22,514 nucleotides of DNA. It comes from a virus. The notes below the pieces were generated by a model. That model made no database searches. It saw nothing but the letters and a program-made list of their open reading frames with translations, and had not been told where the DNA came from. Within the stretch, counting starts at the first letter, position 1, and each line of letters opens with the position of its first letter. Positions 17,442 through 18,822 of this stretch are shown here, one piece after another. A program made the translations under genes and the position numbers. The DNA lies in the IMG/VR virus record IMGVR_UViG_3300001472_005889, positions 1-22,514 of that record, one strand, 5' to 3'.

Positions 17442-17470
17442 TTGACACATTTTTAGTTTTACAATATACT
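17442..17470 (+). promoter_or_regulatory. consensus sigma70-type promoter of the porin-like gene
   Basis: TTGACA (17442-17447) and TATACT (17465-17470) are 17 bases apart, 11 of 12 consensus positions matching. The -35 box begins right after the last glycan gene. Expected transcription start is near 17477, giving a leader of about 210 bases before the ATG at 17687. The -10 box overlaps a CTAAATAA that resembles a T4-like late promoter, so dual early/late use is possible. Confidence 0.7.
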
Positions 17471-17686: not shown

Positions 17687-18052
17687 ATGTTTAAATCTGT
17701 ATTCGCAGCTTCCGCTGCTCTGCTCACTTCTGCTGGAGCTGCATTTGCAGGTCCCTACGTCAACATCGAAACAAATGCTGGTTGGGTTGGCGACGATTAC
17801 ACTGCTGCAACCACAGATCTTCATGTTGGGTTTGAAGGAGAAGTTGGTGCTGCTGCATACTATGTTCAGGCTGGTCCTGCAATTGTTGCTGTTGATGGCG
17901 AAGACACTGACACCCAGTTCTCTGGTAAAGTAGGTCTTGGAGTTCCCGTTTCTGATGCACTGAGTGCATATGGAGAGGTTTCTTTCTTAACTGCTGAAGA
18001 TGAAGATGACTTTGGTCTGGGTGGTAAGTTGGGCGTCAAGTACAACTTCTGA
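17687..18052 (+). CDS. secreted porin-like outer-membrane beta-barrel protein (putative)
   Basis: A 121-residue protein with a clear Sec signal peptide: a basic start (MFK), a hydrophobic Ala/Leu core and an AFA cleavage site after residue 21. The mature part, about 100 residues, alternates polar and hydrophobic residues in repeated strands (VNIETNAGW, TDLHVGFEGEVG, AAYYVQAGPAI, SGKVGLGVPV, LSAYGEVSFL, LGGKLGVKYNF). It ends in the aromatic residue typical of outer-membrane barrels. Length suits a small barrel or a single porin-like unit. The gene is markedly richer in G+C (about half in its first 120 bases) than the glycan operon, suggesting later acquisition or selection for high expression. 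It has its own promoter, a long leader, an AAGGT ribosome site and a terminator. Export to the outer membrane is inferred. Confidence 0.75.
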   Translation: MFKSVFAASAALLTSAGAAFAGPYVNIETNAGWVGDDYTAATTDLHVGFEGEVGAAAYYVQAGPAIVAVDGEDTDTQFSGKVGLGVPVSDALSAYGEVSFLTAEDEDDFGLGGKLGVKYNF

Positions 18053-18057
18053 TCTTA

Positions 18058-18085
18058 TAGACACATATCATCTAGATGTTATACT
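18058..18085 (+). promoter_or_regulatory. candidate sigma70-type promoter overlapping a terminator
   Basis: TAGACA (18058-18063) and TATACT (18080-18085) are 16 bases apart, just upstream of the terminator stem. Initiation near 18092 would start inside the hairpin, so a new transcript could not form the terminator, and the leader would be about 20 bases before the ATG at 18112. Weaker than the other three promoters. Confidence 0.4.
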
Positions 18086-18086
18086 A

Positions 18087-18111
18087 GGGGTGCGACAGCA
18101 TCCCTTTTTTT
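18087..18111 (+). terminator. Rho-independent terminator after the porin-like gene
   Basis: GGGGTGC pairs with GCATCCC (7 bp, one G-T pair) around a GACA loop, followed by seven T residues. The next start codon directly abuts the T-run. Confidence 0.85.
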
Positions 18112-18318
18112 ATGAAAAAATACCTTATAAAGTTTATAACAAATCCAGGAACGCTGACATCCCTTCTAATGCTAGGAATGATAGCACTGATAGGGGCACT
18201 GCATAACCACGCTCACCATGCAATGACTATGGATGCAGATTCTTACGTTAGACAATGGTGTAGAGCATCAGCAGAAAACAAAAAGACCTGCATCAGTTAT
18301 GGTGGAGACATGGATTAA
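18112..18318 (+). CDS. small membrane-anchored protein, unknown function
   Basis: A 68-residue protein. A basic N-terminus (MKKYLIKF) precedes one hydrophobic segment (residues 15-30), then a His-rich stretch HNHAHHAM (31-38) and a polar tail with two cysteines (C49, C60) that could form a disulphide if exported. This suggests a signal anchor with an outside C-terminus. The ATG follows immediately on the T-run of the preceding terminator and has no Shine-Dalgarno sequence; alternative in-frame ATGs at 18169 and 18178 would remove most of the membrane segment. The short sequence matches no family I recognise. Metal binding by the histidines is only a thought. Confidence 0.6.
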   Translation: MKKYLIKFITNPGTLTSLLMLGMIALIGALHNHAHHAMTMDADSYVRQWCRASAENKKTCISYGGDMD

Positions 18319-18320
18319 TA

Positions 18321-18524
18321 ATGAAAAAGAAAGTAAAAAAGATGTTGAAGTGGTTTTATGATGACTCTGAAAGAGGAAAACAAAATATCTCTGAATGTAA
18401 AAATATTTACGAATTAGTAGAGAAACTTCAGTGGAGAATTGAATCTTTAGAGAATGAACACCTACTTTTGTTAGCAGAAATCAACAAACTTAAGTTAGGA
18501 GTTTGTGATACAGAAAGTATTTAA
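18321..18524 (+). CDS. small basic/coiled-coil protein, unknown function
   Basis: A 67-residue soluble protein. The N-terminus is strongly basic (MKKKVKKMLKW). Residues 28-58 form a likely amphipathic helix with regularly spaced leucines (LVEKLQWRIESLENEHLLLL), a probable coiled coil. There is no membrane segment. It starts two bases after the previous stop, with GGAG 14 bases upstream, so the two are probably co-transcribed. It ends 18 bases before a terminator. Function unknown; a small regulatory or scaffold protein would fit. Confidence 0.6.
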   Translation: MKKKVKKMLKWFYDDSERGKQNISECKNIYELVEKLQWRIESLENEHLLLLAEINKLKLGVCDTESI

Positions 18525-18542
18525 GTATAAATTACTACACTG

Positions 18543-18568
18543 TTCCCCTTGACAGGGGAATTTTTTTT
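18543..18568 (+). terminator. Rho-independent terminator with a -35 box in its loop
   Basis: TTCCCC pairs with GGGGAA (6 bp) around the loop TTGACA, followed by eight T residues. It ends the two-gene unit starting at 18112. The loop sequence is also the -35 element of the next promoter. Confidence 0.85.
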
Positions 18569-18577
18569 ATATATAAT
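18549..18577 (+). promoter_or_regulatory. perfect-consensus sigma70 promoter of the hli operon
   Basis: TTGACA (18549-18554) and TATAAT (18572-18577) are exactly 17 bases apart, matching the E. coli consensus at all 12 positions. The start would be near 18584, and the hli ATG at 18604 follows an AAAGG ribosome site. The spacer contains the T-run of the overlapping terminator. Early, strong expression by host polymerase is expected. Confidence 0.85.
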
Positions 18578-18603
18578 ATGTAAAGATTCATTACAAAAGG
18601 TAA

Positions 18604-18822
18604 ATGACTGTAACAACAAATGATCGTGGCCAGCAAAATCTGTTCGCTAAAGAACCCCAAATGTATATCTCTCAGACCGACGCAGAGCGTTATGGTTATG
18701 AATCATATGCAGAAAAGGCAGAGAAATTGAATGGACGCACTGCTATGCTTGGATTTGTTGCTGCTGTTATCTCTTATGCTACTTCTGGTAGTGTATTTTT
18801 CTTTGGTGTCTTTGGATTCTGA
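18604..18822 (+). CDS. hli: high-light-inducible protein (HLIP), 72-residue form
   Basis: A member of the chlorophyll-a/b-binding-like HLIP/SCP family. The single membrane helix carries the signature AEKLNGRTAMLGF (39-51), with the E and N/R residues that ligate chlorophyll and lock the helix dimer, continuing VAAVISYATSG. About 35 polar residues precede the helix, as in longer cyanophage HLIPs. These proteins sit in thylakoid membranes, bind pigment and protect photosystem II and chlorophyll synthesis from excess light. Phage copies are thought to sustain host photosynthesis during infection. It is the first gene after a perfect-consensus promoter and begins an overlapping array of microprotein genes. 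Confidence 0.95.
   Translation: MTVTTNDRGQQNLFAKEPQMYISQTDAERYGYESYAEKAEKLNGRTAMLGFVAAVISYATSGSVFFFGVFGF

Follow-up and report, generated by a model that had tools for sequence, protein, structure and literature searches.

A predicted terminator with the -35 box of hli at its apex recurs among cyanophage hli leaders with changing stem sequences

In T4-like phages, promoter-early stem-loop (PeSL) cassettes, which combine a stem-loop with an early promoter, are reported to mediate gene shuffling (Arbiol 2010, PMC2839356; Comeau 2014, PMC4122927; both as presented in excerpts of PMC4503421). According to these excerpts, the terminator stem-loop and a strong sigma-70-like early promoter are located between genes in plastic regions, modules are exchanged at the element, and few PeSLs are present in S-PM2. 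In RB49, the PeSLs are tandem (i.e., the center of the -35 box is mostly +29 to +46 nt after the loop and never on it), and PeSLs occur as many near-identical copies per genome. Cyanophage early genes use host-type sigma-70 promoters (Sullivan 2010, PMC3037559; review, PMC2984593; excerpts of both), and sites with the NtcA consensus GTA-N8-TAC have been predicted genome-wide in cyanophages (excerpts of PMC3037559). The excerpts of these two articles contain no description of promoters superposed on terminators. No earlier description of a terminator-promoter superposition was found in the literature searched, in which the original PeSL papers were represented by PMC4503421.

We analyzed such a superposition upstream of hli in a 22,514-nt stretch of viral DNA (IMG/VR record IMGVR_UViG_3300001472_005889; referred to here as the window). 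On the plus strand, genes for glycosyltransferases and a cyanophage outer-membrane beta-barrel protein (PF24653) are followed by a pair of small genes without a known function (phrog_2587 and phrog_29699), hli, and later a plastocyanin-like gene. The phrog_29699 gene (67 aa; 18321 to 18524), annotated as "FtsB" in S-SCSM2R, ends 17 bases before a terminator hairpin (18542 to 18561), which was identified on the basis of the sequence, a scan, folding, and covariation. The hairpin consists of a 5' arm (18542 to 18548), the apex TTGACA (18549 to 18554), and a 3' arm (18555 to 18561), and it is followed by a U-tract of eight T residues (18561 to 18568), with an RNA 3' end expected at about 18568. 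According to the sequence, the promoter scan, and a comparison of leaders, the apex is also the -35 hexamer of a promoter whose -10 hexamer, TATAAT (18572 to 18577), lies at a spacer of 17, so that the U-tract is inside the spacer. The letters of the window read GTTCCCC-TTGACA-GGGGAAT, T8, ATA, and TATAAT. Transcription is predicted to start at about 18583 to 18584, and hli (72 aa; phrog_178, high light inducible protein; 18604 to 18822, plus strand) would be the first gene of the new transcript. Because this predicted start is 3' of both the hairpin and the T-run, the RNA of hli itself would not contain the hairpin.

The hli promoter (TTGACA-17-TATAAT) matched the sigma-70 consensus at 12 of 12 positions and was the top site of the half-window covered by the promoter scan, in which the runner-up scored 11 of 12. 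The latter (17442 to 17470; TTGACA-17-TATACT) precedes the outer-membrane protein gene at 17687. The same scan listed the hairpin as a terminator, and its G+C-rich stem directly abuts the U-tract, as expected for an intrinsic terminator. The RNA fold of the hairpin contained 8 pairs (minimum free energy, -11.2 kcal/mol; z score, -3.0), one of which joins T18549 to A18554, leaving a predicted tetraloop, TGAC. An initial annotation of the window had claimed a terminator superposed on a promoter, with the T-run lying within the 17-base spacer of a perfect consensus promoter for hli, and this anatomy was recovered in full (i.e., an 8-bp hairpin and eight T residues, with the -35 box at the apex and TATAAT 17 bases farther on). 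Its description of TTGACA as a six-base loop was correct in that the hexamer forms the whole apex, but the outer T and A are paired and the loop is TGAC. In simulated windows with a matched dinucleotide composition, there were 0.06 perfect promoters per window, and the superposed element appeared in none of 300 simulations. We confirmed that the superposed element in the window is real rather than a product of chance, its recurrence in related phages being far above that in shuffled controls. A lone coincidence is weak evidence because it was chosen after looking at the sequence, and the comparative data described below carry the case.

For this comparison, 83 distinct hli leaders were gathered on the basis of the -10 and leader sequence or the Hli protein; the hairpin was not a criterion. 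TTGACN was present at a spacer of 17 in 73 of the 83 leaders, and TTGACA was present in 58. Of these TTGACA leaders, 27 had flanks that paired at no fewer than 7 of 8 positions, compared with a mean of 5.3 and a maximum of 13 in 2,000 shuffles in which the right flanks were dealt out anew among the leaders, although many leaders are related and the counts therefore overstate independence. Most stem positions in these 27 leaders carried two or more Watson-Crick types, with pairs alternating among C-G, G-C, T-A, and A-T (i.e., compensatory changes), while the apex was constant (TTGACA). In TTGACG leaders, a flanking C pairs with the G. About one-third of the hli leaders, including those of the nearest relatives, retained the promoter (TTGACA-17-TATAAT) and lacked the hairpin, indicating that the hairpin is dispensable for hli expression; in these hairpin-less leaders, the TGA stop codon of the upstream gene is often within or beside TTGACA. 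A minimum of 16 changes in the state of the hairpin was counted on the hli gene tree, a rough figure given that the tree is based on a short gene and has many open forks.

The initial annotation had asked whether TTGACA-loop terminators are present in other cyanophage hli leaders and whether the loop is conserved in related phages. The apex is indeed retained while the letters of the stem change, and the terminators recur with compensatory changes; they are not universal, given the hairpin-less third. Its further suggestion that a single set of bases is designed to terminate one transcript and to initiate the following one is favored by the anatomy and the covarying leaders. Its idea that initiation could be altered by read-through polymerase or by a hairpin in single-stranded DNA gained no support. 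The preservation of the arrangement in related phages despite changing hairpin letters points to a real and reused form of gene punctuation at hli, a photosynthesis-protection gene.

We consider it likely that the 35-base region is a composite gene-punctuation element that terminates upstream RNA and both starts and insulates hli. RNA from the upstream 67-aa gene would fold into the hairpin, and the polymerase would halt at the U-tract at about 18568. For a host sigma-70-type polymerase, this DNA would serve as a perfect -35/-10 promoter, from which hli RNA would start at about 18584; the hairpin could not terminate this RNA, which starts downstream of it. We infer that, in infected cells, termination, initiation, and insulation at this site would leave hli shielded from upstream transcription and independently driven, in the fewest bases. 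The superposition would work because TTGACA can form an apex (T pairs with A) and because a T-rich spacer can double as a U-tract.

The locus shares several features with PeSLs. A sigma-70-like early promoter and a terminator stem-loop occur in one intergenic region at hli, and gene-exchange junctions are located at the element. Sequence shared with the nearest relatives extends to 18317 and resumes at 18570, and 21 to 22 bp in these relatives replace 252 bp of the window (18318 to 18569, plus strand). This exchanged block comprises the 67-aa gene, an NtcA-like box, the hairpin, and the -35 box, and its right junction falls between the -35 and -10 boxes. Behind the same box and hairpin, the upstream gene varies (PstS in Bellamy, a small hypothetical gene in S-SM2, and others elsewhere). 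One leader (L123) has a left half from a hairpin leader and a hairpin-less right half, joined at TTGACA. The promoter would be the fixed part, with arms and upstream genes swapped by recombination at junctions inside the promoter, as in PeSL shuffling. In contrast to the tandem PeSLs of RB49, in which the promoter follows the stem-loop, the offset at hli is 0. The copy number also differs, with one copy of the hli element in each of S-SM2 and Bellamy; the record of the window is only 22.5 kb. On the basis of sequence comparisons, we file the hli element as one that may work like a PeSL in a superposed instead of a tandem form.

KVP40 carries another superposed form: a repeated AAAGGG-TTGAC-N4-GTCAGCCCTTT...TATTAT sequence superposes a promoter and a hairpin in this T4-like phage. 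In KVP40, however, TTGAC lies within the 5' arm and is paired with GTCA, the T-run is short, and the spacer is 18. By inspection, about seven copies of the KVP40 element were present (L750 to L762; e.g., L754:5859), followed by TATTAT-like sites.

The NtcA-like box of the window (GTATAAATTACTAC; GTA-N8-TAC; 18525 to 18538, plus strand) has its center at about -52 relative to the start predicted for hli. Such a box occurred in 35 of 57 hairpin leaders versus 2 of 30 hairpin-less leaders, and its distance to the hairpin is fixed in related leaders, whatever the upstream gene. At class II NtcA-activated promoters, the box is centered near -41.5; the box at hli is about one helical turn farther upstream. 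The box, which is conserved together with the hairpin, is a putative NtcA site. We also considered, and rejected, a gp55 late promoter as the identity of a conserved TATAAAT that precedes the hairpin: in most true late sites, the eighth base is A, whereas it is variable here. The NtcA reading is preferred because this base varies while GTA...TAC is kept.

The relative placement of terminators and promoters was measured in 2.02 Mb of cyanophage DNA (hli neighborhoods and several genomes or large contigs; 310 distinct terminators) as the distance from the loop center to the -35 center of the best nearby promoter, with scrambled hexamers as the control. Two registers stood out, each with 30 cases compared with a mean of 1 to 2 for scrambled hexamers, the copies in both being partly homologous and not independent counts. 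In class A, to which the hli element belongs, the -35 center is within 5 nt of the loop center (peak, 0), and in class B, it is 30 to 40 nt upstream of the loop center (peak, -36). Eight of the class A elements are strict hli leaders; by inspection, about 8 more belong to hli but have a variant -10 box or leader, and 14 precede other genes. In class B, which numbers 31 when that of the window is included, the predicted start is 2 to 6 nt before the loop center, the start codon is within 15 nt of the stem in 29 of 31 cases, and about 26 different protein starts follow. The class B element of the window (18058 to 18111, plus strand) has a -35 box TAGACA (18058 to 18063), a -10 box TATACT (18080 to 18085), and a start predicted at about 18092, near the loop of a hairpin, AGGGGTGC-GACA-GCATCCCT (18086 to 18105), whose T-run (18105 to 18111) directly precedes the ATG of a 68-aa gene at 18112. 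On our reading, both registers spare the promoter's own RNA the full hairpin, and only two placements fit well because G+C-rich arms cannot overlap A+T-rich hexamers. This amounts to a simple rule of geometry for the sharing of DNA between terminator and promoter where phage genomes are compact, and it helps to predict operon boundaries in cyanophages. A far broader generalization appears improbable to us, namely, that cyanophages and other phages punctuate genes with two fixed registers (apex on the -35 box or on the start site), the dyad ending incoming transcription yet remaining invisible to its own transcript, and polymerase in the -35 register being passed straight to the promoter.

Several other explanations of the hli element were weighed. 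The palindrome observed in the window is centered on the -35 box, a classic place for an operator, and a dimeric repressor or activator bound there could regulate hli, with termination being incidental. The arms, however, vary widely in sequence among leaders that retain the pairing and the T-run, a pattern expected of an RNA hairpin rather than of a conserved protein site, and the T-run is on one side only. We rejected the operator reading on account of the unconserved arms and regard it as very unlikely. Equally unlikely is the idea, which extends one in the initial annotation, that the -35 box is hidden or exposed by extrusion of the hairpin when the DNA is single-stranded or supercoiled and that initiation is gated in this way. 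The DNA strand does fold (-6.4 kcal/mol; z score, -3.6), but the same promoter is kept in hairpin-less alleles, and the arms here are 7 to 8 bp, which is short for cruciform extrusion from duplex DNA.

Because the terminator lies inside the promoter, a terminated polymerase might stay on the DNA and reinitiate with sigma at the same promoter, such that upstream transcription would feed hli. At intrinsic terminators in vitro, Escherichia coli polymerase that has released its RNA mostly stays on the DNA, diffuses, and can reinitiate at promoters close by if sigma is present (PMC6978380). Reuse after termination at hli is conjectured by analogy with E. coli polymerase and not with a cyanobacterial one, a complex on the U-tract would also occlude the promoter and could make the net effect negative, and compactness explains the element equally well; we regard such a handoff as doubtful. 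These elements are natural templates for asking whether the polymerase that ends one transcript is reused for the next. To compaction only, in which two ordinary signals come to be superposed because short intergenic regions are selected for and there is no regulatory coupling, we give an even chance. It is consistent with the upstream TGA stop codon being often inside or next to TTGACA in hairpin-less alleles and with class B elements abutting start codons, which reflects the same economy. Nothing argues directly against compaction, under which termination and initiation should neither interfere with each other nor be linked by a handoff. It is the minimal form of the composite-element explanation and compatible with it.

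Related geometries were also observed outside the cyanophages. In Staphylococcus phage vB_SpsS-DH5 and Arcanobacterium phage TPWB06, which share the geometry of the hli element, the sequence reads GGAATCCT(A/G)-TTGACA-GGGTTCC-T6...TATACT. The two records (L495:1200-1240 and L496:1200-1240) are nearly identical over the element despite the differing phyla of their named hosts, and one of the two host labels may be doubtful. Among viral-wide CCCC-N6-GGGG hairpins with a T-run and a spaced TATAAT, loops were TTNACA in 34 of 121 cases versus 4 of 128 terminators selected without TATAAT; exact TTGACA loops accounted for just 4 of the 121, and the signal is TTNACA. The IMG/VR count of CCTTGACAGG...TATAAT refers to elements among the matches listed and says little on enrichment. 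When CCCC/GGGG terminators have a spaced TATAAT, their most frequent loops are TTCACA and TTTACA (L497 to L611; IMG/VR), which suggests that the device is also used with other variants of the -35 box. A recurrent AACTGG-N6-CCAGTTGACACC...T-run...TATAAT form, in which the 3' arm of the hairpin runs into TTGACA, was observed in many contigs (L332, L334, L336, L344, L346, L364, L367, L369, L373, L375, and others).
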